Source: Streptomyces halobius (lineage in GTDB: Bacteria > Actinomycetota > Actinomycetes > Streptomycetales > Streptomycetaceae). From it: a DNA stretch of 64,000 bases. Position numbers and translations under genes: made by a program. The DNA is taken from positions 5,022,001-5,086,000 of the forward strand of contig NZ_CP086322.1 in NCBI RefSeq assembly GCF_023277745.1, read 5' to 3'. Every line of letters begins with the position of its first letter. Positions within the stretch are counted from its first letter, which is position 1. Of this stretch, positions 4,606 through 34,373 are shown one piece after another. The notes under the pieces were generated by a model. The model ran no database searches and was not told the DNA's origin. It worked only from the letters and a program-made list of their open reading frames with translations.

Positions 4606-5493
4606 GTGAGCGACCACACCGACTACGACGCCATCGTGCTGGCCGGAGGCGCGGCCCGCCGGCTCGGCGGGGCGGACAAACCCGCCCTGTCCGTCGGCGG
4701 CCGCCCGCTTCTGGACCGGGTGCTCGCGGCCTGCGCCGACGCGGCGATCACCGTCGTCGTCGGCCCCAGACGCCCGGTCGCCCGCCCCGTCGTACGTGCC
4801 CTTGAGGACCCGCCCGGTGGCGGCCCGCTCGCCGCGCTGGACGCCGGCCTGCGGCACATCACCGCCCCGACCGTCCTCGTGCTCTCCGCCGACCTGCCGT
4901 TCCTGAACCCGGCCACCGTACGGAGCCTCCTGGCGGCGGCGACCCGGCCACAGCGGGACGGGGCGTTGCTGCAGGACGCGGAGGGCCGCGACCAGCCGCT
5001 GGTGGCCGCCTACCGGGCCGAATCGCTGCGCCGCGAGCTGGCCCTGCTGCGCAGCGAACACGGCACCCTGACCGGGCTGCCGCTCCGCGCCCTCTCGTCC
5101 GAGCTGGTGCTCGAACGGGTCCCGGACGCCACCTCCATGGCCTCCTTCGACTGCGACACCTGGGAAGACATCAGCGCGGCACGCGCGCGGATCAGGGAGC
5201 ATGGCAACGTGTTGGACGAATGGATCACCGCAGTCAAGGCCGAGCTGGGCATCGAACTCGATGTCGACACGGCGGTACTTCTCGACCTCGCGCGGGACGC
5301 GGCGCACGGCGTGGCCCGCCCGGCCGCACCGCTGACGACCTTCCTGGTCGGTTACACGGCGGGCCGGCAGGGCCGGGATGTGACGGAGCTTTCCCGCAGG
5401 GCGGCCGAGCTGGCCAACCGCTGGGCCGCCGAGGACGCGGACACGGGCGGCGCCGGCGGCGCCACGGGTGGCGAAGCGAAGCCCGCGGAATGA
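4606..5493 (+). CDS. MobA-like nucleotidyltransferase fused to DUF6457 domain
   Basis: The 295-residue product starts with the nucleotidyltransferase signature LAGGAARRLGGADKPALSV, which binds the nucleotide triphosphate, and continues with VLSADLPFLNP, the metal-binding Asp region of MobA-type enzymes. MobA adds GMP to molybdopterin to make the guanine dinucleotide cofactor. From about residue 200 (NVLDEWITAVKAELGIELDV) a separate helical module resembles DUF6457, which in actinobacteria occurs fused to MobA-like proteins. The GTG start has little Shine-Dalgarno support. The stop overlaps the moeA start by ATGA, which supports a molybdenum-cofactor role. The exact nucleotide specificity is not visible. 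Confidence 0.8.
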   Translation: MSDHTDYDAIVLAGGAARRLGGADKPALSVGGRPLLDRVLAACADAAITVVVGPRRPVARPVVRALEDPPGGGPLAALDAGLRHITAPTVLVLSADLPFLNPATVRSLLAAATRPQRDGALLQDAEGRDQPLVAAYRAESLRRELALLRSEHGTLTGLPLRALSSELVLERVPDATSMASFDCDTWEDISAARARIREHGNVLDEWITAVKAELGIELDVDTAVLLDLARDAAHGVARPAAPLTTFLVGYTAGRQGRDVTELSRRAAELANRWAAEDADTGGAGGATGGEAKPAE

Positions 5494-7340
5494 CCGAGGG
5501 GGAGTTCGACGCCGCGCTGGATGCGCTCGCGCCGGCCAACGGCGGGGCGGGCGGTCCGGTCAGCCGCCCCGGTGACCGTATGCATACCCACCCGCGCGTG
5601 CACACGGACGCGGATACGTATGTGCATACGGACACGTATGCACATACGGGTACGCATGGGCATACGCCTCAGGACACGGTGGCGGGCATGTCCGCGACGT
5701 GCGCCGCACACCACGCATCCGGCTCCGGAGAACCGTCCGGCACCGGCCCCGGCGGACCGTCCGGCACCGGCCCCGGCGGACCGTCCGGGACCGGCACAGG
5801 CCCTGGCGGACCGTCCGGGACCGGCCCCGGCCCCGGGGTACCGTCCAGCCCTGGCGACCGGTCCGGCCCCGCCCCCGGCTCCGGCGACCCCGCGCGTCCG
5901 AAAGCCCCCACCACCTCCGGTCCACGCCCACCCCGCCCCATCCCTCCCGGGCCCCGTGCCCACTCCACCCCCTGGCGGACGGCCCGTGAAATCGCCGGGC
6001 GTGCGGTGTCCGGGCCGCCCGTGCCCACCGCATCGCTGCTGGCCGACGCGCTCGGCCGGACGCTCGCCGAGCCCCTCACCGCCCTCAGCGACCTGCCGTC
6101 CTTCGACACCTCGGCGATGGATGGCTGGGCGGTCTCCGGCCCCGGCCCCTGGTACATCGACCGCCCCGGGGGCGACCGGACAACGGCCGAGGCCAAGCAG
6201 CCGACGGACGCGATCAAGGAGCCGGCCGACAAGACCGCCGACACCACCGACACCACCGACAAGACCGCTCACGACACGGCTCACGACACCGCCCACCCGG
6301 GGATCCTCGCCGGACACGCCCCCACCGAACCGCTCCCCGATGGTCATGCGATCCGGATCGCCACCGGCGCGCGCGTCCCGCCGGGCGCCACCGCCGTGCT
6401 GCGCAGCGAGCACGGCGAGGTCCGTGACCTGGCCGACGGCCGGACGCGACTGTACGCGCCGCGGCCCGTGTCGCCGGGCCAGGACATCCGTCCGCGCGGC
6501 CAGGAGTGCCGCCGCGGCGACCAACTGCTGCCCGCCGGCACCCTGGTGACCCCCGCAGTCCTCGGTCTGGCCGCGGCCGCCGGCTACGACGAGCTGACCG
6601 CGTACCCCCGCCCGCGCGTGGAAGTCCTCGTCCTGGGCGATGAGTTGCTGCAGCACGGACTCCCCCAGGAGGGCCGGATCCGCGATGCGCTCGGCCCGAT
6701 GATCGCCCCCTGGCTGCGTGCCCTGGGAGCCGACGCGGCCCCGGCACGCCATCTCGCGGACGACGCCGACACGCTGTACGCCGCCATCGCCACCTCCACC
6801 GCCGAGGTGCTCATCACCACCGGGGGCACGGCGTCGGGCCCCGTCGACCATGTGCACCCCACGCTGCGCCGCCTGGGCGCGGAGGTGCTGGTGGACGGGG
6901 TGGCGGTGCGCCCCGGGCACCCGATGCTGCTCGCCCGCCTCGGCCCGCGCCGTCATCTCGTCGGCCTCCCCGGCAACCCCCTCGCCGCGGTCTCCGGCCT
7001 GCTCACCCTCGCCGAACCGCTGCTCCGCACGCTGGCCGCACGCCGTCCCGCCGCGGCGCGCCGTACACCACTGTTCGGCTCCGTGCACGGTCACCCGCAC
7101 GACACCCGGCTGGTCCCGGTCGCCCATCGCGACGACGCCCGCTACGGCCTGACGGCGGAGCCGCTGCGCTTCCACGGCCCGGCCATGCTCCGCGGGATCG
7201 CCGCCGCCGATGCGCTGGCCGTCGTCCCGCCCGGCGGCGCGGACCGCGGCACCGAGGTCGAACTCCTTGAACTCCCCTGGTCAGCAGGCGGATTGACGGA
7301 CTGGTCCAGCTCCGACGGATGGTCCAGCTCCGACGGGTGA
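5490..7340 (+). CDS. moeA: Molybdopterin molybdenumtransferase MoeA with low-complexity extensions
   Basis: MoeA inserts molybdate into adenylylated molybdopterin. The core begins near residue 158 (WRTAREIAGRAV) and shows SFDTSAMDGWAV, IRIATGARVPPGATAV, VLVLGDEL, ITTGGTASGPVDHV and GLPGNPLAAVSG, all family hallmarks. At 616 residues it is about 200 longer than usual. Residues 31-62 form a His/Thr-rich segment, 75-125 a run of GPSGTGPG-like repeats, and a Lys/Thr/Asp/His-rich insert follows the SAMDGW motif. The C-terminus adds a tandem WSSSDG repeat. A His-rich arm might bind metal, but this is a guess. Start ATG 5490 overlaps the preceding stop. Confidence 0.88.
   Translation: MTEGEFDAALDALAPANGGAGGPVSRPGDRMHTHPRVHTDADTYVHTDTYAHTGTHGHTPQDTVAGMSATCAAHHASGSGEPSGTGPGGPSGTGPGGPSGTGTGPGGPSGTGPGPGVPSSPGDRSGPAPGSGDPARPKAPTTSGPRPPRPIPPGPRAHSTPWRTAREIAGRAVSGPPVPTASLLADALGRTLAEPLTALSDLPSFDTSAMDGWAVSGPGPWYIDRPGGDRTTAEAKQPTDAIKEPADKTADTTDTTDKTAHDTAHDTAHPGILAGHAPTEPLPDGHAIRIATGARVPPGATAVLRSEHGEVRDLADGRTRLYAPRPVSPGQDIRPRGQECRRGDQLLPAGTLVTPAVLGLAAAAGYDELTAYPRPRVEVLVLGDELLQHGLPQEGRIRDALGPMIAPWLRALGADAAPARHLADDADTLYAAIATSTAEVLITTGGTASGPVDHVHPTLRRLGAEVLVDGVAVRPGHPMLLARLGPRRHLVGLPGNPLAAVSGLLTLAEPLLRTLAARRPAAARRTPLFGSVHGHPHDTRLVPVAHRDDARYGLTAEPLRFHGPAMLRGIAAADALAVVPPGGADRGTEVELLELPWSAGGLTDWSSSDGWSSSDG
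5617..5648. repeat. 14-bp perfect inverted repeat inside moeA His/Thr-rich segment
   Basis: CGTATGTGCATACG (5617-5630) and its exact reverse complement (5635-5648) are separated by GACA. Each arm is itself nearly palindromic and largely alternating purine-pyrimidine. The stretch is much AT-richer than the surrounding coding DNA and encodes the His/Thr/Tyr repeats of MoeA. Confidence 0.7.
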
Positions 7341-7697
7341 TACGACCCCGGCGCCCGCACGGACCCGGAGGATTCCACCGGAGACGCCGGGGGAAGCTCC
7401 CGTCCCAGGAAGCCGCGGCGCAGCGTCCTGCCGGCGATCAGCATCCTGCGCGCGCTGTCCGACCCCGGCGACGACGAGACCCCCTTCCTGGTCGGCTTCC
7501 TGATGAAGGGCGACGGCCTGATGCGCCTGTACGTGCAACACCCCGGCCGCACAGGCACCATCGGCGCCGACATCCACCTGACCGACATGCTCACCGCTGA
7601 TCGCCTCACTCCCTCCCTCATCGAGGAAGAGGAACGCCACCAGCCGGCCCCGGACGGCCCGCACTGCGATCTCCTCGTGGACCTGACCGCCTGGTAG
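7341..7697 (+). pseudogene. Coding remnant in frame with moeA after its stop; function unrecognised
   Basis: Directly after the moeA TGA the same frame stays open for 118 codons to TAG at 7695-7697. From about 7420 it has strong Streptomyces codon bias (nearly all third positions G or C) and reads like real protein: SVLPAISILRALSDPGDD, PFLVGFLMKGDGLMRLYVQ, HPGRTGTIGADIHLTDML. There is no ATG, GTG or TTG before the internal ATG at 7503, so on its own it could only give a 64-residue peptide. I do not recognise the family. It may be a gene fragment left at the edge of the 7.3-9.7 kb scar, or an extension reached by stop-codon readthrough. The 136 bp after it hold no gene I can support. Confidence 0.4.
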
Positions 7698-7833
7698 GGC
7701 TACTGCACCTCGACCCAGCGCTTTCAACCCATCCTCTTGTTCCACTCATGCGCGAAGATCCGGTACGCGGTCATCCGCCGCGAACCGGACCCGTCGAAGC
7801 GGGGCACTGCCGCCGGTCGGCACTGTTTCGAGC

Positions 7834-8952
7834 TCAGACCGCGCGGTCGCTCGACGCAGCAGCCCGCCGAATGGTGATGAGCCGGTCCGTGAGCTGGAGC
7901 GTCGCGGCCTCCGGATGGGTGTAGTCCAGCACCCTGTGCCCGCGTACGACGGCCACGACCAGGTCATCGCACTCACGGGGGGAACCCCCTGCCTCGGCCT
8001 TCGTCACCGGACGCTCTTTGAGGTCCAGTCCGCCGCCGGAGGTCATCAGATCTTCCAGGACGGTGCCTGCGTGCGGACTGGCCATCGACACACCGAGCAG
8101 GCGACCCGCTGAACTGGAACTCGTGACCACCGTGTCGGCCCCGCTCTGCTTCAACAAGGGAACGTTCTCGTCCTCCCGGACCGCCACCACGATGGAGGCA
8201 CGCTTGTTGAGCTGGCGTGCCGTGAGCGTCGCCAGGGCTGCGGTGTCGTCTCGCTGGGCTGCGATGACGATCTTCGAGGCCCGCTGCAGCTCCGCCCTGC
8301 GAAGAGTCTCGGAACGGGTCGCATCCCCGAGGACGCCCACCAACCCGTCGGCGCTTGCGGCATCCACCACCTTCTGCTGAGGATCGACCACGACGATCTG
8401 TTCCTTGGGAACGCCCTGACCGACCAAGGTTTCTACGGTGTGGCGACCCTTGGTCCCGTACCCGATGACAACGACGTGATCTCGCATACGGGACCTCCAG
8501 CGGTGAACACGTACCTGCTGCCGAGTACGTTCGGTGAGCACTTCGAGCGTGGTGCCGACCAAGATGATCAGGAACAGGATGCGCAGTGGCGTGACCGCCA
8601 GGGCGGTGATCAGTCGTGCACCGTCGCTGACGGGTGTGATGTCACCGTAGCCCGTGGTCGACAGGGACACGGTCGCGTAGTACACCGCATCAAGGAGATC
8701 GACATCCCCGTCGGCGTTGTCGTGGTACCCCGCTCGGTCGATCCACACGATAACCGTCGTGAGCGCCAGGACCAGGAGTGCCATGACAAGCCGACGGAGG
8801 ACCTGTTGGAGCGGTGGCGTCAGGCGTTGGACGGGCATGACGATGGACCGCCCGGCCTCGGTCGCTTCCTCTGTCTCGGTGCGTGAGCGGGACCAGAGCG
8901 AGCGGAAAGCAGAGAATCTACCCGTCCTGAGCGGCGGCTTTACTTGTCTCAT
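7834..8952 (-). CDS. Two-TM potassium channel with C-terminal RCK (TrkA-N) domain
   Basis: This 372-residue membrane protein has a first TM helix (VMALLVLALTTVIVW), a pore loop with the K+ selectivity filter STTGYGDITP, and a second TM helix (LRILFLIILVGTTLEVL). A cytoplasmic RCK domain follows with the Rossmann motif VVVIGYGTKGRHTVETL and VVDPQQKVVDAA; RCK domains gate such channels through nucleotide or ion binding. ATG 8952 is preferred because GAGGAG lies 8 nt upstream; ATG 8838 would remove 38 residues and lacks a good site. The open frame continues upstream to 9438, but only through Nudix-pseudogene DNA. The gene opposes a truncated paralogue at 9692. Confidence 0.85.
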   Translation of the reverse strand: MRQVKPPLRTGRFSAFRSLWSRSRTETEEATEAGRSIVMPVQRLTPPLQQVLRRLVMALLVLALTTVIVWIDRAGYHDNADGDVDLLDAVYYATVSLSTTGYGDITPVSDGARLITALAVTPLRILFLIILVGTTLEVLTERTRQQVRVHRWRSRMRDHVVVIGYGTKGRHTVETLVGQGVPKEQIVVVDPQQKVVDAASADGLVGVLGDATRSETLRRAELQRASKIVIAAQRDDTAALATLTARQLNKRASIVVAVREDENVPLLKQSGADTVVTSSSSAGRLLGVSMASPHAGTVLEDLMTSGGGLDLKERPVTKAEAGGSPRECDDLVVAVVRGHRVLDYTHPEAATLQLTDRLITIRRAAASSDRAV

Positions 8953-9074
8953 CCAGCCAACTCCTCGGGTGTGGCGTGAGGCAGGGAGGTCTGAGTGCAC
9001 GGCATGCCGCCATGCTCTGGGATGCAGATTGCCGATGCCTGATGCAGACGTTGTCGCGGCGCGTCTCGCCGGCC

Positions 9075-9365
9075 GGCGGTTTGGCCGTGCTCCAGGTACT
9101 GGGGGTGAGCCTGGGCCCGCGCCGTAATTGCCGCCTTCACTCGGCGGGAGAGTCGCGGGATCAAGAGGTGAGCCCAGCTCTTCCTTCACCTCACGCTGAC
9201 AGACGGCCAGCGGCGACTCTCCGCGCTCGATGTATCCGCCGGGATCTCCCACATGGGCTTGTACGAAGGCTTGACCAACAGGACTTGGTCTTGACTGTTG
9301 GAGAACAGCGCGCCCGCTGCCATGCGCGGGGTCGCCATACGTCGCACCTGCTCGCTCTCGGCCAT
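9075..9365 (-). pseudogene. Frameshifted and internally deleted Nudix hydrolase
   Basis: From ATG 9365 one frame reads MAESEQVRRMATPRMAAG, then ALFSNSQDQVLLVKPSYK and PMWEIP. A one-base deletion then moves the sequence into another frame that carries a complete Nudix box: GGYIERGESPLAVC followed by QREVKEELG, matching GX5EX7REUXEEXGU. A third frame (about 9150-9080) ends in RVKAAITARAQAHPQYLEHGQ-like sequence, which resembles the C-terminal tail of actinobacterial Nudix proteins. The middle of the domain (about 60-70 residues) is missing. The gene is therefore broken by one frameshift and one internal deletion. It lies just upstream of the K+ channel start. Confidence 0.7.
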
Positions 9366-9449
9366 GAAGCGACCCTACCGGCCTGCTCTCGGCGCCTCTG
9401 AGCTGCCTTGTCACCTCGCCGATGCGTTGCGCGTCCACATCGAAGACCT

Positions 9450-9686
9450 TCAGGGCGCTCCGGCCCTGCGCGGTGTCGGCCGACTGACGTACCGTCCGCC
9501 GCGCGACTCGACGAACGACCGGTTGTCCTTCTCCTGCTCGTCGCGGCTCTTGATGTCTCGGCCGGTCATGGGCCGGAAGGCGGACGTGGCCTCGGTAGCG
9601 TCGTTCTCAGCGGTAGCGGGGCCCTCGTCGGCCTCGAAAGCCAGGCGGACCAGGCCGCCCAGTTCTGATCTTTGAGATCGCCCCAA
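9450..9686 (-). pseudogene. Possible serine-recombinase N-terminal fragment
   Basis: The minus strand encodes a 78-residue frame containing RPMTGRDIKSRDEQEKDN and FVESRGGRYV. This reminds me of the N-terminal region of some actinobacterial large recombinases, where a Gly-Arg-Asp-Ile-Lys segment is followed by a Asp-Asn-Arg/Val-Glu-x-Arg-Gly-Gly pattern. The rest of the catalytic domain is absent. The resemblance is from memory and weak. The position between the broken Nudix gene and the pore-less K+ channel copy fits a recombination scar. Confidence 0.25.
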
Positions 9687-9691
9687 CGGGC

Positions 9692-10477
9692 ATGCTGCAC
9701 AAGCTCGTTGTCCCTGAACTTAGGTTGCTTTCGTCAAAATGCTGGAGATACGCCTTGCGTGACCACACCGTCGTCGTCGGCTTCGGCACCAAGGGCCGGT
9801 CCGCCGTGCAGACCCTCTGCGCCACGGGCACGAGCCGTGACCGCATCGTCGTCGTCGATCCGCTCCCCAAGGTAGTAGAGGCGGCGGTGGCCGAGGGCTT
9901 CGCGGGGGTGGTCGGCGACGCGACCCGCAGCGATGTGCTGGTACGGGCCGAGATCCAGCGTGCCCGCCAGGTCGTGATCGCAACCCAGCGCGATGACACC
10001 GCCGTCCTGGTCCCGTTGACCGCCCGTCAGCTCAACAAGGAGGCCAATATCGTCGCGGCGGTGCGGGAGGAGGAGAACGTCCCACTGCTGCGGCAGTCCG
10101 GCGCCGACGCCGTGATCACCTCGGCGAGCGCGGCGGGACAGCTGCTGGGGCTCTCCGTCCACAGCCCCAGCGCGGGCACCGTGCTGGAGAATCTGATCCA
10201 GCAGGGCAGCGGTCTCGACCTCATGGAACGGCCGGTGGTGAAGGCCGAGGTCGGCAAGTCCGTCCGGGAGACCGACGACCTGATCGTCGCCGTCCTGCGC
10301 GGCCACCGGTTGCTCGGTCACGACGATCCGGCGGCCGGTCCGCTGCAGACCACGGACCGGGTGATCGCCATCATCGGTGCGCCGGTGACGGAAGAGCCGG
10401 ACAGCACCGGCGGGAAGGCGGCCAGGCCGAGGCTTCCCGGCACCGGCGTCGCCCCCATGCGCCGGTCGGACGGGTGA
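9692..10477 (+). pseudogene. 5'-truncated K+ channel paralogue: RCK domain without pore
   Basis: The 261-residue frame is a near-copy of the cytoplasmic half of the channel at 7834-8952: DHTVVVGFGTKGRSAVQTL versus DHVVVIGYGTKGRHTVETL, RQLNKEANIVAAVREEENVP versus RQLNKRASIVVAVREDENVP, and a shared GTVLE(N/D)L stretch. There is no TM helix or selectivity filter. The first ~22 residues (MLHKLVVPELRLLSSKCW...) do not resemble the family, and no Shine-Dalgarno is seen. Either the 5' half was lost in rearrangement, which I prefer, or it survives as a soluble RCK regulator. It is divergent from the intact copy, and its position next to the quinone oxidoreductase suggests it is the older resident. 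Confidence 0.6.
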
Positions 10478-10632
10478 CCCGGGCGTCGGACGGGTGACCG
10501 GGTGCGGGGCCGGGCAGGTGCCCGCGCACCGGGGCAGACGTCGTCCGGCGCCCCTGTGGTCCGTACCCCACGCGGTGGCCACCGGCCCCCGCACCGTCGC
10601 CTCGTGCGCGGGCGGCGAGTAGCCTCGCGCTC

Positions 10633-11610
10633 ATGCGAGCGATCACTATCCCCGAGCCCGGTGGCCCCGACGCACTTGTCTGGGCGGACGTGCCCGATCC
10701 GCAGCCCGTCGAGGGCGAGGTCCTGATCGAGGTCGCGGCCGGCGCCGTGAACCGCGCCGACCTGCTGCAGCGCCAGGGCTTCTACGACCCGCCGCCCGGC
10801 GCCTCCCCGTACCCCGGACTGGAGTGCTCCGGCCGGATCGTCGCGCTCGGCCCCGGTGCGCACGGCTGGGCCGTCGGCGACGAGGTGTGCGCGCTGCTGG
10901 CGGGCGGCGGCTACGCGGAGCGGGTCGCCGTCCCGGCCGGGCAGGTGCTGCCGCTGCCGACCGGTCTCGATCTCGTGTCGGCCGCCGCGCTCCCCGAGGT
11001 CGCCTGCACGGTCTGGTCCAACGTCTTCATGGTCGCGCACCTGCGGCCCGGTGAGACGCTGCTGGTGCACGGTGGCGCCAGCGGCATCGGCACGATGGCG
11101 ATTCAGCTCGCCAAGGCGGTCGGCGCGCGGGTCGCGGTCACCGCGGGCGGCCCCGAGAAGCTGGCCCGCTGTGCGGAGCTGGGTGCGGACATCCTCATCG
11201 ACTACCGCGAGCAGGACTTCGTCCAGGAGATCCGCAAGGCCACCGACGGCAAGGGCGCGGAAGTCATCCTCGACATCATCGGTGCCAAGTATCTGCAACG
11301 GAACGTGAAGGCGCTGGCGGTCAGCGGACGGCTCGCGATCATCGGCCTGCAGGGCGGGGTGAAGGCGGAGCTCAATCTCGCCGCCCTGCTGAACAAGCGT
11401 GCCGCGATCACCGCCACCAGCCTGCGGGCCCGCCCGCTGAACGAAAAGGCGGCCATTGTCGCGGCCGTACGGGAGCATGTCTGGCCGCTGATCGGCAATG
11501 GCCAGGTCCGGCCGATCGTGGACCGTACGCTCCCGATGGCGCAGGCCGCGGAGGCGCATCGCGTGGTGGACGCGAGCGTGCACGTCGGCAAGGTCGTGCT
11601 GACGGTCTGA
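10633..11610 (+). CDS. NAD(P)H-quinone oxidoreductase, zinc-free MDR family
   Basis: This 325-residue medium-chain dehydrogenase/reductase begins MRAITIPEPGGPDALVW. It has a GroES-like N-domain (NRADLLQRQGFYDPPPG, PGLECSGRIVALG) and a Rossmann cofactor domain with LLVHGGASGIGTMAIQLAK. The AHRVVDASVHVGKVVLTV ending is typical of the PIG3/QOR group. Catalytic zinc ligands of alcohol dehydrogenases are absent. The probable activity is NADPH-dependent reduction of quinones or enals in the cytosol. It stands alone, with 155 bp of GTCGGACGGGTGACC-type direct repeats separating it from the truncated channel gene. Confidence 0.88.
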   Translation: MRAITIPEPGGPDALVWADVPDPQPVEGEVLIEVAAGAVNRADLLQRQGFYDPPPGASPYPGLECSGRIVALGPGAHGWAVGDEVCALLAGGGYAERVAVPAGQVLPLPTGLDLVSAAALPEVACTVWSNVFMVAHLRPGETLLVHGGASGIGTMAIQLAKAVGARVAVTAGGPEKLARCAELGADILIDYREQDFVQEIRKATDGKGAEVILDIIGAKYLQRNVKALAVSGRLAIIGLQGGVKAELNLAALLNKRAAITATSLRARPLNEKAAIVAAVREHVWPLIGNGQVRPIVDRTLPMAQAAEAHRVVDASVHVGKVVLTV

Positions 11611-11777
11611 GCCCTGCCCCTCCCGCCCCGGCAGCCAGGGGCCTTCCGACCCTGACCCTCGGATATGCCCCATCGGCCAGGCCCTAACCCGACCGCCATA
11701 CCCAAAGTGCCGGGATGGTCGCGCCGTGTGAATCTGAGCATGTCACTCGACGGCTCGGCACGGGAGGGGCAACGGCT

Positions 11778-12638
11778 GTGGCTCCACGATTCCGTTCGCG
11801 CATCACCACCGGTCTGCTGGTGGCCGCCACCGTCCTGCCCGTCCCGCTGGCAGCCACCGCGGCAACCGCCTCGGGCGGGTGGGCGACGCCGGTCGACCGC
11901 CCTCCGGACCTGGTCCGCCCGCAGGTCTCCCGTCCCCACGTCCCGCCCGACACCTATGCGGAAGAACCACCGCTGGCCGGCAGCCTTGCGGGGGCCGGCC
12001 GGCGCCACCCCGGCCGTCCGGAGACGACGGCGCACTCGGCACAGCGGCCGGACTCGGACGCCGTCTCCGCGCGGCCCGAGGTTCCCGGCCGGGCGGAGAA
12101 CCCGGAGGGGCTATCGGACCGCCCGTCGCACGTCCCGGATGAGCCGTCCGCGCAGGCACTGCGCCCCGAGCGCCCGCCGCCCCCTTCCGGACCGGACGCC
12201 ACCGAGCCCTCCCCGTCGCACACCGCTCCGGAGCCGAGCGACTCCGCCACCGGCGTCCCGGACTCCCCGGACCTGACGAGCCCGCCCGCCGGCGAAGGCG
12301 CGGAGCTCCCACCGAGCCCCTCCGCCCCTTCGCCGCCGGCCTCCGACGAGGCCGCGGAGCCGTCCGCACAGCCGCCCCCCGAAGAGCACCGGGATCTCTC
12401 CGGCCGTCCGGTCCAGAGCCCCTATGAGCCGCTGTCCCCGCCGCAGTCGCTCACCACCCCCGAGCAGCGGTCCGGCTCCGCGCCGGCGACCAGGGACAAC
12501 GAACCGGCCGCCACGGCAAGCCCCTACGCGCTGGACGCCCCGGCCTCCCGCGTCGAACGTGTCCTCCCGCTGGGCGCCGGCCTCGCTTTCACCGGCCTCG
12601 GCCTCGCCTTCCTCGGCCTCCGGCTCCGCCGCCGCTGA
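11778..12638 (+). CDS. Secreted Pro/Ser-rich protein with C-terminal membrane anchor
   Basis: GTG 11778 follows GGGAGGGG by 8 nt and gives MAPRFRSRITTGLLVAATVL with a clear Sec signal peptide ending near ATAATA. About 210 residues of Pro/Ser/Glu/Asp-rich, probably disordered sequence follow, then LPLGAGLAFTGLGLAFLGLRLRRR, a TM helix with an Arg tail. The layout resembles actinobacterial cell-wall surface proteins, but there is no LPXTG; LAFTG is the nearest match and sits inside the helix. An in-frame ATG at 11715 would spoil the signal peptide. Function is unknown. The gene ends 8 bp before the parS triplet. Confidence 0.65.
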   Translation: MAPRFRSRITTGLLVAATVLPVPLAATAATASGGWATPVDRPPDLVRPQVSRPHVPPDTYAEEPPLAGSLAGAGRRHPGRPETTAHSAQRPDSDAVSARPEVPGRAENPEGLSDRPSHVPDEPSAQALRPERPPPPSGPDATEPSPSHTAPEPSDSATGVPDSPDLTSPPAGEGAELPPSPSAPSPPASDEAAEPSAQPPPEEHRDLSGRPVQSPYEPLSPPQSLTTPEQRSGSAPATRDNEPAATASPYALDAPASRVERVLPLGAGLAFTGLGLAFLGLRLRRR

Positions 12639-12646
12639 CTCCTGCC

Positions 12647-12728
12647 GTTTCACGTGAAACCACGTCGAAAACGTCCCGCCGTTTCACGTGAAACCATTTC
12701 GACATCATGTCGCCGTTTCACGTGAAAC
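12647..12728. other. Three parS sites spaced exactly 34 bp
   Basis: Perfect GTTTCACGTGAAAC palindromes occupy 12647-12660, 12681-12694 and 12715-12728, starting 34 bp apart. This is the known Streptomyces ParB-binding sequence used to organise and segregate the origin region. The 20-bp spacers are partly similar (both start CA and end GCC), which suggests tandem duplication of a 34-bp unit. Confidence 0.9.
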
Positions 12729-27900: not shown

Positions 27901-28689
27901 GTGCGCGCCTCACTGATCCAGATGGGTGTGGATCCGGCGGAATCGGTCAATTCCCGGCGTGAAAGGGCGGCTTCGCTCGTCCGCGCACGGGCGGCCAGCG
28001 ACCTCGTCGTCCTCCCCGAGCTGTGGCCGGTCGGCGCGTTCGCCGCCGATCTCTTCGACGCCGAGGCGGAGCCGCTGACGGGGCCGACGCATGCGGCGAT
28101 GTCGGCGGCCGCGCGGGACGCCGGGGTCTGGCTGCACGCCGGATCCATCGTCGAGCGGGCCGCGGACGGCACCCTCTACAACACCTCGCTGGTCTTCTCC
28201 CCCGACGGCCAACTCGTCGCGTCCTACCGCAAGATCCACCGCTTCGGCTTCGACCAGGGTGAGGCCGTGCTGCTGGGCGCCGGTGACCGCGCGGTCACGG
28301 TCGCCTTGCCGCAGACCACGCTGGGCCTGGCCACCTGCTACGACCTCCGCTTCCCGGAACTCTTCCGGCAGCTGGCGGCGGACGGCGCCCAGATGCTGGT
28401 CGTGCCCGCCGGATGGCCGGCCCGCCGCCGTGCGCACTGGTCGCTGCTGGCCCGCGCCCGCGCCGTGGAGAACCAGACGTATGTGCTGGCCTGCGGCACC
28501 GCGGGTACCCATGCCGACGTCGAACAGGCCGGCCACAGCGTCGTCGTCGACCCCTGGGGCGAGGTGCTCGCCGAGGCCGGGCCGGACGAAGAGGTGCTGA
28601 CCGTGGACCTCGATCCGTCCGAGGTCGCCAAGACCCGCGCCGACTTCCCCGTCCTCCGCGACCGCGTGCTGGGCCTCGACCGCCCCTGA
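27901..28689 (+). CDS. Carbon-nitrogen hydrolase (nitrilase superfamily)
   Basis: The 262-residue amidase has the Glu-Lys-Cys triad: Glu40 (VVLPELWP), Lys111 (SYRKIHRFGF) and Cys146 (ATCYDLRFPE). Length and motif order fit the Nit/omega-amidase branch that repairs deaminated glutathione or hydrolyses omega-amides such as 2-oxoglutaramate. It starts at GTG 27901 and is divergent from the mycothiol-dependent enzyme. The next coding sequence downstream is the stranded gene fragment at the left end of the integrated element. Confidence 0.87.
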   Translation: MRASLIQMGVDPAESVNSRRERAASLVRARAASDLVVLPELWPVGAFAADLFDAEAEPLTGPTHAAMSAAARDAGVWLHAGSIVERAADGTLYNTSLVFSPDGQLVASYRKIHRFGFDQGEAVLLGAGDRAVTVALPQTTLGLATCYDLRFPELFRQLAADGAQMLVVPAGWPARRRAHWSLLARARAVENQTYVLACGTAGTHADVEQAGHSVVVDPWGEVLAEAGPDEEVLTVDLDPSEVAKTRADFPVLRDRVLGLDRP

Positions 28690-28772
28690 CGCCCGTAACC
28701 GGGGCTCGGGCCCGGGCCCTCATCGGAGCCCCTGTGGAATGTGCGGGCACCTGAGTGACGTTGAATGTCCAC

Positions 28773-28913
28773 ATGGCTTCTCGTGCGCGCGTCCGGGCCC
28801 CCGAGCTGATCGGCAAGGGCGGCTGGCTGAACACCGGCAATAACGATCTGACCCTCTCCGATCTGCGAGGACGCATTGTCATCCTCGATTTCTGGAAGTC
28901 CTGCACACTGTGA
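28773..28913 (+). pseudogene. Stranded 5' fragment of thioredoxin/NHL-repeat gene
   Basis: ATG 28773 begins MASRARVRAPELIGKGGWLN, then TGNNDLTLSDLRGRIVILDFW, followed by KSCTL and a stop. The first 41 residues match the start of the gene at 32508 (RPRVRAPELIGKGGWLNTGG, LTLADLRGRCVVLDFW), but after DFW the sequence diverges into element DNA. This is the original 5' end of the host gene, cut off by integration at GATTTCTGGA. Confidence 0.85.
28887..28896. repeat. Left attachment-site core (attL) GATTTCTGGA
   Basis: The ten bases encoding Asp-Phe-Trp are shared with the right junction at 32646-32655. Sequence on the left belongs to the old host-gene 5' end, and on the right to the element. Short cores are typical for serine integrases. 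Confidence 0.6.
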
Positions 28914-28932
28914 GGAACTTCCGGGAGGGGAC

Positions 28933-29648
28933 GTGCACCACCACACGTTTGCTGATCTCTACCTCCGACTGTCGCTAGACAGGGACGGGAAGACAGCGAT
29001 CGAGCGCCAACAACACGACTGTGAGGAGTAGGCCAGGAGGAACGGCCTGTCGATACGACAGGTGCACATCGACCGTGGACGGTCCGGATACAAGCACGTC
29101 ACCCGCAAGGGGTTCGACGCCGCCAAGGCCGCCTTGGCTGCGGGCGTGGTCGGAACGTTGATCGTCTGGAAGCTGGACCGCCTGTCGCGCAAGGGCATGG
29201 GAGAGATCGGGCTACTGCTGGACCAGCTCGACAAGGCGGGCGGCCGGCTGATCTCCGTCGTGGACGGCTTGGACTCCAGCAAGCCGAACGCCCGCCTGAT
29301 CATGGCCACACTGTCGGAGCTGGCGCGTGCGGAGTCCAAGACACTCGGCGAACGCGTCGGGCATGCGAAGCAGTACCTCCGGGGCCAAGGCCGATGGATC
29401 GGCGGACAACCCCGTACGGGTTGATGATCGACCCGGAGACAGGACAGCTCACACCTGATCCTGAGACAGGCGTCTACGCGCGACTCATCGCGGACGAAGC
29501 CCTGGCGGGTGTGCCGCTCGTCAAGGTCGCCCGACTGTTGAACGAATACGAGATCCCCGGGCCCCGTGGCGGACTCTGGCAGGTCAACACGCTCTCCCAG
29601 TTGCTCCAGCAAGACGTACGCGCGCTAGGTGTGATCCTATTTTTTTGA
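28933..29648 (+). pseudogene. Serine integrase, broken by nonsense, frameshift and 3' truncation
   Basis: GTG 28933, behind GGGAGGGG, begins with the resolvase catalytic domain: DLYLRLSLDRDGKTAIERQQ (the Ser in LRLS is the expected nucleophile). TAG at 29029-29031 replaces the usual Trp before ARRNG. The domain continues with VWKLDRLSRKGMGEIGLLL, PNARLIMATLSELARAESK and RGQGRWIGGQP. One base is lost near 29410, so PPYGL becomes RTG-stop. The other frame resumes YGLMIDPETGQLTPDPETG and PLVKVARLLNEYEIPGPRGG, a recombinase domain, and ends at 29648 after ALGVILFF. The zinc-ribbon/coiled-coil C-terminus (about 250 residues or more) is missing. Confidence 0.85.
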
Positions 29649-29753
29649 GCGGTGCTTGCTCGCTGACCAGGGGGCATGTTCCGAAACGTGGTCGAGAACG
29701 ACCTCGTGAAGGGGACAGTAACGCCCCCGAGCGCCCTGTGAATGGCCTGGCAG

Positions 29754-30950
29754 TCACGCCACGTTGTCGAGTAGGGCGCGCACTTCGGGCACGTCCTTGA
29801 ACGCTTCCAGCCGTGCGAGCACGACTCGTACCCGCTCCGATGTCCGCTCGCTGGCCACGTCGGCGGACAGCGTGATGACTCGCTCCGCTGTAGACGCCGC
29901 TTCCTCCGGCTCATTGGCGTCTGCGAGAGCGACGGCAAGCCAAGACAAGTAGAGCGCGAGTTCCCGCGTGTGCGTCGCGTCATACCGGCTGAGTACGTCC
30001 CGCAGCAACGGCACGGCCCGAAGCGGTCGGCGTAGCTCGGTGTAGACGCGGGATTCCATGACCTGTAGCTCCCCGGCATCCACCCAATACAGGTAGGCAG
30101 GTTCTTCCTCCCCGTCGTGCTGGGCGAGCGCTTCGCTTGCTTCCCCGAGTGCGCGCATGGCGGGCTGAGCCTCCCCAGTCTGCGTGTGGGCCCACGCCAC
30201 GCGATCGAGGTACAGGGCGCGCGCCCGTGGCGGGGCTTCGCTGGCGTTTACCAGTGCTGCCCGAGCCATGGTGAGCCCTTCCTTCACATCCCCTGTGTTT
30301 GTCCGCTGGTAGGCCAGGGAGCCGAGTAGATGGCCCGCCAGTGTCGCGTCACGGGCCTTGTCCGCTGCCGACAGGCCTAGGCGGTAGATCCGCTCTGCCT
30401 CCATGTGCTGCCCGGCGTCACTCGCAATCCATCCCGCAATTTGCGCCAACTCGACAATTTGGATGAGGAGTTGACGGCCTACGTCCTCAGTGTGTGTGGC
30501 TTCCCGGTAGATACGTACGGCCGACCGGAGTTCCCGTAGTGCGGGGCGCATGAGGTCGCCCCCGGCTAGTACGTCATCGGCGAGTCGAAGGCCGTGGGCA
30601 CGCTTCTGTAGATCGTCCGCCGTGCCGGCTCCGATGCGTCGCCCCGTACGGGCGCTGAGAGGGGCCAGCGGGTCTTCCTCGGGCAGGAAGTCGGCGAGCG
30701 TCGGCAACGGGGTCTCAGTGGGCGCCTGTGGTGCCGTGAGCGCTTCTGCGGAAACACCGAGGGCGGCAGCGAGGAAAGGAAGCCACTCACGCGGCGTGCG
30801 CTTCCCGGTCTCCCACCGGCTGACTTCCTGGCGGCCGACGGGTTCGCCCTGGAGGCCAGCGACCCGGCAGACCTCCCGCGCCAGGCGTGCCTGGCTCCAC
30901 CCGCGCTGTTCGCGCAGATGTCGGATGTTGGCCCCGATCGTCCCGGTCAT
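29754..30950 (-). CDS. XRE-family regulator with TPR-like C-terminal region
   Basis: The 398-residue regulator has an N-terminal helix-turn-helix (NIRHLREQRGWSQARLAREV, QEVSRWETGKRTPREW) and about 280 residues of helical, TPR-like repeats (TAGHLLGSLAYQRTNTGDVK-like, PPRARALYLDRVAWAHTQTG). Such proteins are frequent in Streptomyces integrative elements and near small developmental genes, probably sensing a peptide or partner. It is divergent from the small ORF pair at 31025. The frame is intact, unlike the integrase. Target and signal unknown. Confidence 0.8.
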   Translation of the reverse strand: MTGTIGANIRHLREQRGWSQARLAREVCRVAGLQGEPVGRQEVSRWETGKRTPREWLPFLAAALGVSAEALTAPQAPTETPLPTLADFLPEEDPLAPLSARTGRRIGAGTADDLQKRAHGLRLADDVLAGGDLMRPALRELRSAVRIYREATHTEDVGRQLLIQIVELAQIAGWIASDAGQHMEAERIYRLGLSAADKARDATLAGHLLGSLAYQRTNTGDVKEGLTMARAALVNASEAPPRARALYLDRVAWAHTQTGEAQPAMRALGEASEALAQHDGEEEPAYLYWVDAGELQVMESRVYTELRRPLRAVPLLRDVLSRYDATHTRELALYLSWLAVALADANEPEEAASTAERVITLSADVASERTSERVRVVLARLEAFKDVPEVRALLDNVA

Positions 30951-31024
30951 GGGTCAAGTCTGGCCGACAGTTGGCCTACACGGGGCCGCTAGTCGTAGAT
31001 GCGCTCCGGGCGGAGGCTGCCGAC

Positions 31025-31231
31025 ATGACAGAGCCGACGAGATTCCTCACGGCGCCGGTAGAGCTGCCGTTACGGAGGGACCTGGAGCCCGTGCCCGTGG
31101 ACGGCTGCGATGTGTGTGGCGCGCTGGCCAGGGAGCGGGAAGCTGCATGGCTCGCCGGAGACGGCTCGAAGGTCTCTGACTGCAATGTGGAGATCAGGAA
31201 ACACCCGCACGCCAAGCGGCGGCGCCCGTGA
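31025..31231 (+). CDS. Small element-borne protein with two-Cys motif
   Basis: ATG 31025 gives 68 residues: MTEPTRFLTAPVELPLRRDL, then a CDVCGALAREREAAWLAG segment and a later single Cys in KVSDCNVEIRKHPH with a basic end. It may bind zinc through CxxC plus Cys/His, but this is a guess. Similar small proteins often accompany XRE regulators in Streptomyces accessory DNA. Its stop overlaps the next start as GTGA, so the two are co-translated. The longer ORF from 30887 overlaps the regulator antisense and is not favoured. Confidence 0.6.
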   Translation: MTEPTRFLTAPVELPLRRDLEPVPVDGCDVCGALAREREAAWLAGDGSKVSDCNVEIRKHPHAKRRRP

Positions 31232-31425
31232 TCTTGGAAGGGGACATTGGCAAGCGCGTCCAGGACTCTGCTGGACGCGTGGGCATCCTGCGCGACGTAA
31301 TCCTGGACTACGTAGACCCCGCCGACCCGCCCCAGGAGCGCCGCAAGCGGCCTACGGCCTTCCTGTGGCCCGAAGGTGGGGGCGCTGAGTGGCTGGTCTC
31401 ACCGGACACCGTGAGACCGGCCTAG
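31228..31425 (+). CDS. Small element-borne protein, SH3-barrel-like
   Basis: GTG 31228 encodes 65 residues (MILEGDIGKRVQDSAGRVGI, LRDVILDYVDPADPPQERRK, AFLWPEGGGAEWLVSPDTVR). The alternating pattern with a GxxV-D-G-R-G core is reminiscent of small beta-barrel domains found in element-encoded proteins, without an assigned function. It is translationally coupled to the preceding ORF. The 236 bp that follow contain no further gene I can support. Confidence 0.55.
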   Translation: MILEGDIGKRVQDSAGRVGILRDVILDYVDPADPPQERRKRPTAFLWPEGGGAEWLVSPDTVRPA

Positions 31426-31661
31426 ACAGTCCCCGGCCGGACAAGCCCTGAGCGCGGGCAGACGTGCCCAATCTGAGCTGACGGGCTCAGGCTCTCGCCC
31501 CAATCCGCCCCTTAACTGGGGTGCTGCCCTAGGCAGTGAGGAAAGCCGCTTCGGACCTAGGGCAGCCGAAGCACCCAAGCACCCGCCCCGGTTGGTGGAA
31601 ACCCTGGACAGGTCGAGCAACCGGGGCGGGCCATTGAATCCACACCAGGGAGGAAACGCAC

Positions 31662-32144
31662 ATGAATGATGTACGCGAATTACTCACCCCTGCTGCGTTC
31701 GGGGGAGTCGTCGCAACAGTCCTCGACAACAACCCCGGCATGGACGAGCCTATGGCCGCTCGGATCGTGACGGAAGCGCTCAAGTTCGTGGACGCTGCTG
31801 CGAAGTTCCCCACGATGAAGATCGCCCCATCGCAGGTGGTGGACGAGGGCTGACACGCGCTGATCCTGCACACAGGGCCGTACGCCAAGCTGTGTGAAGG
31901 GCTCGGACGGTTCGTCCACCACTACCCCGAGCGCCCGGACCCGGAGCGCCACCACCCGCAGGTGCTAACGCGGACTGTGGCCCTGATCGAGGAAGCCGGA
32001 CACGAGGTAGACAGCGAGCTGTGGACGGGGCCGGACAAGGTCTTGGTGTCAGTCGCAGCGAACTGCAACCACACCCCAAAGCCCGGAGGCTGCGGCCCCA
32101 TCAACCCGGGGAATTGCGCAACGCATGGCGGTGGGGGTAGCTAG
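31662..32144 (+). pseudogene. Nonsense-interrupted cargo gene (TGA in place of Trp)
   Basis: ATG 31662, behind a GGGAGGAAA site, starts MNDVRELLTPAAFGGVVATV and reads to APSQVVDEG. TGA then follows at 31851, and the same frame continues HALILHTGPYAKLCEGLGRF, VHHYPERPDPERHHPQVL and CNHTPKPGGCGPIN to a stop at 32144. In related actinobacterial proteins I recall DEGWHALILHT, so the TGA replaces Trp (TGG). The full length would be 160 residues. Codon 7 is TTA, which would require bldA tRNA. The C-terminus is Gly/Cys/His-rich. Read as a pseudogene, though UGA readthrough cannot be excluded. Confidence 0.7.
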
Positions 32145-32154
32145 GCTGCCCGGC

Positions 32155-32406
32155 ATGAACGCGGAAGAAGCCCGGCAGGTGGATACGGCGTTGAGGCGGC
32201 TGGGTGTCCCCGGAGTGGTCGCGCCGGAAGATCCAGACAACCCGGCGGGGGAATGGCGCGTGTACGACACGGCCGACCCCACGACCCGCAAGGACACGAC
32301 CGCTAATGCCCTGGTGGCCGTTGTGGCGAAGTTCCGGGATGCCAACCCGGAGCCCACCCGACGCGGACCCACGCGTGGCTTCATCATCCCGCCCGAGGAA
32401 GACTGA
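32155..32406 (+). CDS. Small element-borne hypothetical protein
   Basis: ATG 32155 gives 83 residues: MNAEEARQVDTALRRLGVPG, VVAPEDPDNPAGEWRVYDTA and a basic tail RRGPTRGFIIPPEED. It starts 10 bp after the interrupted gene and is probably in the same transcript. I recognise no domain. An in-frame GTG/ATG further upstream (32125) would overlap the preceding gene's end. It is the last gene before the replaced host-gene 5' end. Confidence 0.55.
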   Translation: MNAEEARQVDTALRRLGVPGVVAPEDPDNPAGEWRVYDTADPTTRKDTTANALVAVVAKFRDANPEPTRRGPTRGFIIPPEED

Positions 32407-32507
32407 CTGCTCGAACCGGCCCCGTCTGTGCGCTCCCCATGGTGCGTGGGCGGGGCTCTGCCATGCCCCGGTCCGCTGTCCGCAGATGGCCCGTGCATCC
32501 TGGACAC

Positions 32508-34373
32508 ATGAGCAACCAGGAACAGCCGACGGTCCGCCGCCGTCCCCGCGTCCGCGCCCCTGAGCTGATCGGCAAGGGCGGATGGCTGAACACGGGCGGA
32601 AAGAACCTCACGCTGGCCGACCTCCGAGGTCGTTGCGTCGTGCTAGATTTCTGGACCTTTTGCTGTGTGAATTGCCTGCATGTCCTGGACGAACTGCGGG
32701 AGCTGGAGGAGCGGCACCGCGACACCGTCGTGATCATCGGGGTGCACTCGCCGAAGTTCGTCCACGAGGCCGAGCACCAGGCGGTCGTGGACGCCGTCGA
32801 GCGCTACGGCGTCGAGCACCCGGTGCTGGACGATCCGGAGCTCGCCACCTGGAAGCAGTACGCGGTGCGGGCCTGGCCGACGCTCGTGGTGATCGACCCC
32901 GAGGGGTATGTCGTCGCCCAGCACGCCGGTGAGGGCCATGCGCACGCCATCGAGAAGCTCGTCGAGGAGCTGACGGCCGAGCATGCGGAGAAGGGCACGC
33001 TGCGACGTGGATGGGGGTACCGCCCATGCCATGAAGGCTATGGGGGAGGGCCGTATGTACCGCCCGAACCGGTGGCCACCGATCTGCGCTTCCCCGGCAA
33101 GGCACTGCGGCTGCCGGGTGGCACCTTCCTCGTCTCGGACACCACCCGGCACCGGCTCGTGGAGCTGGCGGCGGACGGCGAGCGGGTGCTGCGCCGGATC
33201 GGCAGCGGCGAGCGCGGCCTCGGCGCGGACTCCTTCAACGAGCCGCAGGGCCTGGCGCTGCTGCCCGACGGCAGGGTCGCCGTCGCGGACACGGTCAACC
33301 ACGCCATCAGGGTGTTCGACCCCGGGAGCGGCGCCCTGGAGACGGTGGCCGGCACCGGCAAACAGTGGTGGCAGGGCTCGCCGACCTCCGGTCCGGCCCG
33401 CGAGGTGAACCTCTCCTCGCCCTGGGACCTCGCCTGGTGGCAGGACCGGCTGTGGATCGCTATGGCCGGGGTGCACCAGCTGTGGACGTACGACCCGGCC
33501 GCCGGCACGGTCGAGGTCGCGGCCGGTACCACCAGCGAGGGGCTGGTGGACGGCCCGGCCGCAGAGGCGTGGTTCGCGCAGCCCTCGGGGCTCGCGGCGG
33601 CCGGCGACCGGCTGTGGGTCGCGGACTCGGAGAGCAGCGCGGTGCGGTGGGTGGAGCGCTCCGAGGAGGGGGACGGATATGTCGTCCGTACGGCCGTCGG
33701 CACCGGTCTCTTCGACTTCGGGCACCGCGACGGCGCCGCCGGTCAGGCGCTGCTGCAGCACCCGCTGGGCGTGACGGCGCTGCCCGACGGCTCGGTCGCC
33801 ATCGCGGACACGTACAACCATGCGCTGCGCCGCTTCGACCCGGCGAACGGTGAGGTCACGACGGTGGCGACGGATCTGCGCGAGCCGTCGGGCGCGGTGC
33901 TCGCCGACGACGACATCGTGGTGGTGGAGTCGGCCCGGCACCGGCTGACCCGGCTGCGGCTCCCCGAGGAGGCGGTCCGGGTCGAGTCGGTGGCGCACCG
34001 AACGCAGCGCGCGGCCACCGAGATCGCGCCGGGCACCCTCCGTCTCGATGTGGTCTTCCAGGCACCGGCGGGCCAGAAGCTCGACACCAGGTACGGGCCC
34101 TCTACGCGGCTGCTGGTCAGCGCGACACCGCCGGAGCTGCTGGCCGAGGGCGCGGGCGCGGACACCGACCTCAGCCGCGACCTGGTGCTGGCGGACGGCG
34201 TGACCGAGGGCGTCCTGCATGTCTCGGCGATGGCCGCGTCCTGCGATGACGATCCGGGCATCGAGTACCCCGCCTGCCATGTGCACCAGCAGGATTGGGG
34301 TGTACCGGTCCGTGTCGTCGATGACGGGGCGGCCCGGCTCGGGCTCGTGCTGGCGGGGCTGGACGCCGGGTAG
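32508..34373 (+). CDS. Thioredoxin-like/NHL-repeat protein, N-terminus supplied by the element
   Basis: The 621-residue protein has a TlpA/thioredoxin-like N-domain with LDFWTFCCVNCLHVLDELRE (CxxC-type CVNC) and VVIIGVHSPKFVHE, followed by NHL beta-propeller repeats (EPQGLALLPDGRVAVADTVN, HPLGVTALPDGSVAIADTYN). A C-terminal domain holds GVLHVSAMAASCDDDPGI and YPACHVHQQDWG. It is probably a cytosolic redox-related scaffold. Its first 46 codons lie on the element side of the right junction; the rest is chromosomal. The N-terminus (MSNQEQPTVRRRP) is eight residues longer than in the stranded copy at 28773. Confidence 0.85.
   Translation: MSNQEQPTVRRRPRVRAPELIGKGGWLNTGGKNLTLADLRGRCVVLDFWTFCCVNCLHVLDELRELEERHRDTVVIIGVHSPKFVHEAEHQAVVDAVERYGVEHPVLDDPELATWKQYAVRAWPTLVVIDPEGYVVAQHAGEGHAHAIEKLVEELTAEHAEKGTLRRGWGYRPCHEGYGGGPYVPPEPVATDLRFPGKALRLPGGTFLVSDTTRHRLVELAADGERVLRRIGSGERGLGADSFNEPQGLALLPDGRVAVADTVNHAIRVFDPGSGALETVAGTGKQWWQGSPTSGPAREVNLSSPWDLAWWQDRLWIAMAGVHQLWTYDPAAGTVEVAAGTTSEGLVDGPAAEAWFAQPSGLAAAGDRLWVADSESSAVRWVERSEEGDGYVVRTAVGTGLFDFGHRDGAAGQALLQHPLGVTALPDGSVAIADTYNHALRRFDPANGEVTTVATDLREPSGAVLADDDIVVVESARHRLTRLRLPEEAVRVESVAHRTQRAATEIAPGTLRLDVVFQAPAGQKLDTRYGPSTRLLVSATPPELLAEGAGADTDLSRDLVLADGVTEGVLHVSAMAASCDDDPGIEYPACHVHQQDWGVPVRVVDDGAARLGLVLAGLDAG
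32646..32655. repeat. Right attachment-site core (attR) GATTTCTGGA
   Basis: Identical to 28887-28896. Upstream sequence (GTGCTA, using a rare CTA codon) is element-derived, and downstream sequence encodes the conserved TFCCVNC of the host protein. The reading frame runs through without interruption. Confidence 0.6.

Follow-up and report, generated by a model that had tools for sequence, protein, structure and literature searches.

A serine-integrase element that appears to rebuild the 5′ end of the protein-coding gene it enters in Streptomyces

How can a mobile element enter a protein-coding gene and yet leave that gene full length? This question is raised by a locus of Streptomyces halobius (NZ_CP086322.1, positions 5,022,001 to 5,086,000; this whole stretch of 64,000 nucleotides is referred to as the window), in which a thioredoxin/NHL gene has its beginning twice, with a 3.76-kb element separating the two copies. 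A previous annotation made from the letters alone, the sequence-only reading, described a split gene with an element-borne 5′ end, and proposed an integrative element that restores the gene it enters. The split gene and its second 5′ end are confirmed here, and the proposed reading is supported. Very probably, integration took place at a TG within a Trp codon, the native 5′ end was stranded, the element supplied a replacement, and the element later decayed.

The motif at which the host gene was said to be cut, GATTTCTGGA, is present at both junctions, at 28887-28896 and 32646-32655. On the left, an open reading frame (ORF) from 28773 reads MASRARVRAPELIGKGGWLNTGNNDLTLSDLRGRIVILDFW, with 41 codons up to the Trp codon, and then enters the element and stops at 28911-28913. 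The sequence-only reading was right that the native first codons lie here, on the plus strand at 28773-28894 up to the crossover, though its count of 38 has to be replaced by 41. On the right, the replacement 5′ end (32508-32653, plus strand) starts MSNQEQPTVRRRPRVRAPELIGKGGWLNTGGKNLTLADLRGRCVVLDFW and has 49 codons up to the crossover; it opens a gene of 621 amino acids (32508-34373), so that the description of a full-length gene with a homologous, diverged start and an N-terminus eight residues longer holds. The nucleotide alignment of the two copies that had been suggested gives 72% identity over the last 39 codons, and 76% for the protein, while the leaders upstream of RVRAPEL have no similarity in local alignment. 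A protein search of the whole 9.24-Mb single-contig genome recovers the stranded piece at E 8e-16, therefore the resemblance is not due to chance. The crossovers are placed at 28893-28894 and 32652-32653, and the segment between them has a G+C content of 66%, compared with 70-71% for its surroundings.

Which of the two copies is native can be read from relatives that lack the element, a comparison that had also been recommended. Over its 41 amino acids the left copy is 93-98% identical to the gene in the five nearest relatives (loci L009-L013), where it is uninterrupted. These genes start MASRARVRAPEL rather than with the SNQEQPT type of the right copy, which would have refuted the sequence-only reading. 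For the right copy, identity to them is only 82-86% (residues 11-54). As the left copy is the closer one, the right copy is the one that the element brought.

The element begins with the remains of an integrase (28933-29648, plus strand). Resolvase (PF00239, 29062-29421) and Recombinase (PF07508, 29394-29645) domains are found in separate frames, with an in-frame TAG at 29029-29031 and a frameshift near 29394-29424. The C-terminal half is missing, and what is left aligns with residues 1-226 of an intact relative of 516 amino acids (L095). This relative matches PF00239 and PF07508, with the zinc-ribbon domain PF13408 just below its cut-off (24.6 versus 25.3 bits). The domain content places the predicted enzyme among the large serine integrases of the kind known from phages and integrative and conjugative elements (ICEs). 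The element in the window itself is, judged by its sequence, a dead relic.

Does the same arrangement occur elsewhere? We regarded an integrase as related at 63% identity or more. Among 198 genomes, a 120-amino-acid piece of the window integrase matches relatives in nine besides its own, at 63-71% identity, and all nine are at the same gene. With the intact 516-amino-acid relative as query, nine named loci were obtained (S. toxytricini, S. triculaminicus, four further Streptomyces, NBC_00249, Kitasatospora griseola and Streptantibioticus ferralitis). In a family-wide draw, 11 of 150 genomes and 5 of 17 genera have a related integrase; ten of these 11 loci were read there, while genome G172 had already been counted as L098. 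Three of the resulting 29 loci (L211, L233 and L236) were dropped as near-identical duplicates of L098, L209 and L210; for example, L098 and L211, a locus of the genus draw and that of Streptomyces sp. NBC_00249, have identical gene bodies and near-identical integrases. Every one of the 26 distinct loci lies at the thioredoxin/NHL gene.

We call a 5′ end element-type when a Gly codon GGT is followed by AAG, CGC or CGT. The search for other elements with such a replacement end, which had been proposed, finds it in all 22 loci where the gene is full and in reach, and 14 of these were found after the type was defined. In the other four the gene body is lost (L091, L095), past the contig end (L204) or not reached (L231). 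The stranded native 5′ end is in frame in 16 of the 26 loci, truncated in two, and decayed or missing in eight. With the left-type start of element-free relatives, these loci bear out the view that the replacement 5′ end arrived with a serine-integrase element when this inserted into the gene. Measured from the start of the integrase to the core at the right end, the elements are 1.5-9.5 kb long, and two of less than 2.1 kb (L097, L206) have an intact integrase ORF. Among 18 intact integrases, the median ratio of nonsynonymous to synonymous differences (pN/pS) is 0.27 over 153 pairs, and the corresponding rate ratio (dN/dS) is 0.10-0.15 in the 12 close pairs listed. It seems that host proteins have repeatedly been given new N-termini by such elements.

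Some of these loci have a history of their own. L091 and L095 keep the integrase and have lost the thioredoxin/NHL body, with only the last 54 residues matched in L095, which may reflect insertion followed by gene loss. In L094 (3200-9712) a truncated DUF5753-HTH ORF upstream forms a fusion with an integrase of one subtype, and the cargo and right end are of another subtype, as in L099; these are probably tandem or recombined elements at a single site.

The crossover site was located by comparing the blocks of identity between attL and attR in eight loci. These blocks are narrowed to TG by L206, and TG is included in six others. In the window, attL (28868-28919) consists of the host B half-site (28868-28892), the TG (28893-28894) and the element P′ half-site (28895-28919), and attR (32627-32678) of the P half-site (32627-32651), the TG (32652-32653) and the host B′ half-site (32654-32678). 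P and P′ are symmetric at 15 of 25 positions, against a shuffled mean of 6.4, and across the loci the symmetry is 13-18 of 25 in eight out of eight (shuffled means 6.2-8.4; p 0.0045 or less each). The host halves B and B′ match at 7-12 positions. This is consistent with an attP of inverted-repeat arms around a short non-palindromic core, and with a different attB. Since the 25 coding bases left of the right-end TG mirror the 25 bases right of the left-end TG, the P half-site is the end of the replacement coding sequence. The residues there differ from native genes because the codons double as P half-site; element-type ends read RGRCVVLDFW, RGKCVVVDFW or RGRTLILDFW, compared with mostly RGRIVILDFW-like native ends. 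No stop codon is found in the 5′ segments of the 119 full genes.

Element-type ends are also found in genes without an integrase. In a draw from the genus, 161 of 199 genomes matched and about two thirds were read, all integrase carriers included. This gave 111 classified loci, leaving out L202 (same genome as L097) and the two that have lost the gene body. Twenty of them are element-type, eight with an integrase and 12 without, and an integrase is found in none of the other 91. When eight named loci are added, 28 of 119 are element-type, and these require 19 changes on a gene-body tree, at least 17 of them forced by starred branches; the tree comes from a quick search with SH-like approximate likelihood ratio (SH-aLRT) support only. 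The simplest reading of the integrase-free ends is element loss that kept attR, which could occur by recombination between the two 5′ copies, for example. Alternatively, the 12 ends may not be scars: strains could have exchanged alleles by ordinary homologous recombination, or the GGT codons could be due to chance. We consider this possible but somewhat doubtful. Two near-identical pairs, L105/L128 and L152/L112, differ in a patch of about 60 nucleotides and have no element, a pattern that conversion could also produce. That said, the element-type patch terminates at the crossover core, and the entire leader and 5′ end are replaced between L154 and L142, again with no element. Furthermore, although an intact duplicated 5′ end, which would have spoken against the sequence-only reading, is found in no integrase-free locus among the 111, L121 retains a decayed one (a decayed attL) beside a scrap of integrase sequence. 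In L204 the stranded 5′ end (8845-8955) is itself element-type, therefore an already rewritten gene was entered again. A rewritten gene may be protected against a second entry, its site being attR; L204 suggests that re-entry does happen.

Another question is whether the elements are phage remnants rather than small integrative elements of their own kind. Phages often encode large serine integrases (1,045 of 50,697 phage records matched), and there is a P22-coat-like gene in a more distant element, L250. However, no phage or plasmid record reaches at least 60% identity to the integrase, and viral contigs gave no match in a pattern scan. The annotated elements carry DUF6879 and DUF5753-HTH proteins, HTH regulators, a resolvase of 190 amino acids, an ORF that we take to be methyltransferase-like, and unknowns. 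Among the part of their ORFs that was scanned with Pfam and NCBIfam, there are no relaxase or conjugation/translocation genes. A phage origin is unlikely on this evidence.

The cargo of the element in the window includes an HTH/TPR regulator of the NsdA family with an open ORF (29754-30950, minus strand; NCBIfam NF053720 at 249 bits with a cut-off of 75, and HTH_31) and an ORF of 65 amino acids (31228-31425, plus strand). In L090 and L100, homologues of the latter with 71% identity immediately precede the restored gene. A third ORF (31662-32144, plus strand) is broken by a stop at 31851-31853. Its pieces, 31662-31853 and 31962-32144, match one intact 184-amino-acid ORF of Streptantibioticus ferralitis (L210) at 59% and 55% identity. 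Only distant integrases (about 30%) were found when a second one of this kind was sought in the same genome. A tRNA gene was considered as the target and rejected, as there is no tRNA within the window.

Could the host have duplicated its own 5′ end after the insertion, as a repair, with the element carrying none? The two copies are homologous, as this would require, and we nevertheless reject it as very improbable, because the right copies follow the element and not the host. They are alike across species while the left copies track the host, and the P half-site lies within the right copy. The Kitasatospora right ends have nearly identical DNA with GGTAAGTGTGTCGTACTA in all, and GGTCGCACATTGGTGCTA is common to L090 and L100 though their gene bodies are not sisters. 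The ungapped left/right identity of 35% in L090 is misleading because of an indel in its right copy. Least credible of all is the reverse polarity, with the right copy ancestral and the left one element-borne or a duplicate: longer starts of the MNDAAPAPTP... type, like the right copy in length, are common in Streptomyces, but a left-type start in all the nearest gene-body relatives (L156, L179, L164, L155 and L157) rules it out, and the left copy starts 83 bp past a nitrilase-family gene, an arrangement also found for the uninterrupted gene in L159, L138 and L129 (gaps of 46, 68 and 88 bp). This upstream neighbour is a carbon-nitrogen hydrolase (27901-28689, plus strand; PF00795, E 4.8e-56). 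The DNA upstream of the target gene in L009-L013, L155-L157, L164 and L179 does not match it, unlike the window.

We return to integration with a carried 5′ end and propose the following mechanism. A small serine-integrase element very probably entered by attP x attB recombination at the TG, which lies in a Trp codon belonging to the conserved DFW motif. The host DNA left of the crossover, with the native leader and 41 codons, was stranded at attL. The right end of the element brought its own leader, a start codon and a diverged, in-frame copy of the first codons, and a chimeric gene of full length results at attR. About eight codons at the end of the replacement double as the P half-site that the integrase would bind, which accounts for the unusual codons and residues (GR/GK-C/T-...) there. 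Later the element decayed, with integrase function lost and some cargo broken, while the chimeric gene remained. The rebuilt gene is presumably expressed and working, and selection for a non-damaging insertion may have favoured elements that carry a 5′ end.

Several observations weigh against this mechanism. On the new promoter and changed expression that the sequence-only reading predicts, a sigma-70 pattern scan of 28650-32700 found no promoter, and the leader motif that was tried is not enriched in element-type genes, being commoner in native ones (7 of 28 versus 39 of 91). The attL of L210 reads CG, which leaves the TG core in seven of eight loci; this core may have mutated. The controls for P/P′ symmetry are mononucleotide shuffles of one arm, and in L209 a score as good is reached at 25 of the 19,501 other positions of the locus. 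The association between integrase and marker in the genus draw is partly circular, because the GGT marker was defined after the first loci had been seen, and there are GGC/GGG genes (e.g. L120, L123, L140, L162 and L169) with an element-like ADFRGR but without the marker.

The restored gene encodes Thioredoxin_8, AhpC-TSA and NHL domains. Its product is related to the solved structures of SOQ1 (7djj) and NHLRC2 (6gc1), and its CCxxC-type cysteines are in the host-derived part. There is also an in-frame insertion of about 12 residues at 33010-33055 (WGYRPCHEGYGG), not found in the four relatives examined; the palindrome TGGGGGTACCGCCC within it occurs once in the window.

Is the restoration of a 5′ end confined to this gene? 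The next integrases, about 42-50% identical, are located in a gene for a pyridoxal-phosphate (PLP) enzyme (PALP). L240 (G057) and L241 (G064) have a stranded 5′ end, an integrase and a restored PALP gene, and the restored copies have about 15 extra in-frame residues before GNKWR, while all 11 other genes read are without them (the comparison covers the 12 best loci of 59 matching genomes). The element in this gene has a P/P′ symmetry of 13 of 25 (p about 0.004) around CC. L242 has a stranded PALP end, with the gene body about 9 kb off and a partial match only. In L246 (minus strand, 5441-12665) a serine integrase lies between a truncated DUF255 thioredoxin-like gene of 269 codons and a full one of 679 amino acids, a restoration of about 268 codons. 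In L250 (3519-12574) an element of about 8.4 kb, which also has an HTH/TPR regulator, lies in the gene of a response regulator, about 20 codons of which are stranded and have been replaced; its repeat is weaker (73 nucleotides, 71%, E 4e-4) and is backed by the frame. For the 11 distant loci L240-L250, the repeats are clear in L240, L241 and L246 and weaker in L250, with L242 having a stranded 5′ end only. No interpretable repeat is found in L243-L245 and L247-L249, L245 being cut by the contig end. Counting five of the 11 loci, other Streptomyces serine integrases appear to restore three further genes in the same way. Ahead of the stranded end, L241 has the tail of another, similar HTH gene, which looks like the trace of an older element.

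Integration that restores a 5′ end already has precedents among tyrosine integrases, the type found in both the dusA islands and SXT. The dusA islands and prophages (IMEVchUSA3 and relatives), according to passages of two papers, enter the 5′ end of a conserved protein gene, supply a promoter together with 5′ codons of their own (61% identity over 35 residues), and leave a remnant 5′ end (PMC8409611, PMC4482086). The stranded remnant and the replacement 5′ end are shared with the window, while the Gram-negative hosts and the gene are different; these passages contain no analysis of a translated half-site, scars or recurrence (PMC8409611, PMC4482086). The SXT/R391 ICE in prfC is cited as replacing the promoter and N-terminus of its target (Hochhut and Waldor 1999, as cited in a passage of PMC8409611). 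The replaced N-terminus is alike, and SXT is unlike in being a large conjugative element. A stranded native 5′ end and a gene rebuilt with an element-borne start are typical of both systems and are found here. Because the integrase is a serine integrase, the element works like them and is a member of neither family. Passages on serine-integrase ICEs and integrative and mobilizable elements of streptococci and other Firmicutes describe these as disrupting their targets (PMC4701971, PMC5704250). They share a site-specific serine integrase and a protein-gene target, whereas the gene in the window regains full length through a new 5′ end. Restoration of the target is described as common among islands, and elements that restore a tRNA 3′ end are a case of it (PMC12884075). 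Such elements likewise carry the lost part of the target and make integration harmless, with the difference that theirs is the 3′ end of an RNA gene and here it is the 5′ end of a protein gene with leader and start codon. Judged by titles, abstract openings and passages, a full-text literature search returned no paper on serine-integrase elements that restore a 5′ end.

It is quite possible, if somewhat short of probable, that a 'translated attP' evolved repeatedly among the serine integrases of Streptomycetaceae, with the half-site in frame in the replacement 5′ exon. Elements of this sort, some with little beyond an integrase and a 5′ end, would overwrite leaders and N-termini in conserved genes again and again, and leave permanent chimeric 5′ ends after they decay; in the PLP enzyme the gain would be about 15 residues beside the lysine motif. 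Entry into protein genes must spare the host, and here the target appears to be rebuilt by a whole serine-integrase lineage, whose recombination half-site has to be readable as codons too. It follows that conserved genes can acquire new N-termini, and perhaps new promoters, by horizontal exchange, with traces that resemble ordinary divergence. The consequences concern annotation, phylogenies in which 5′ ends are included, and the search for natural attB/attP pairs for genome engineering.

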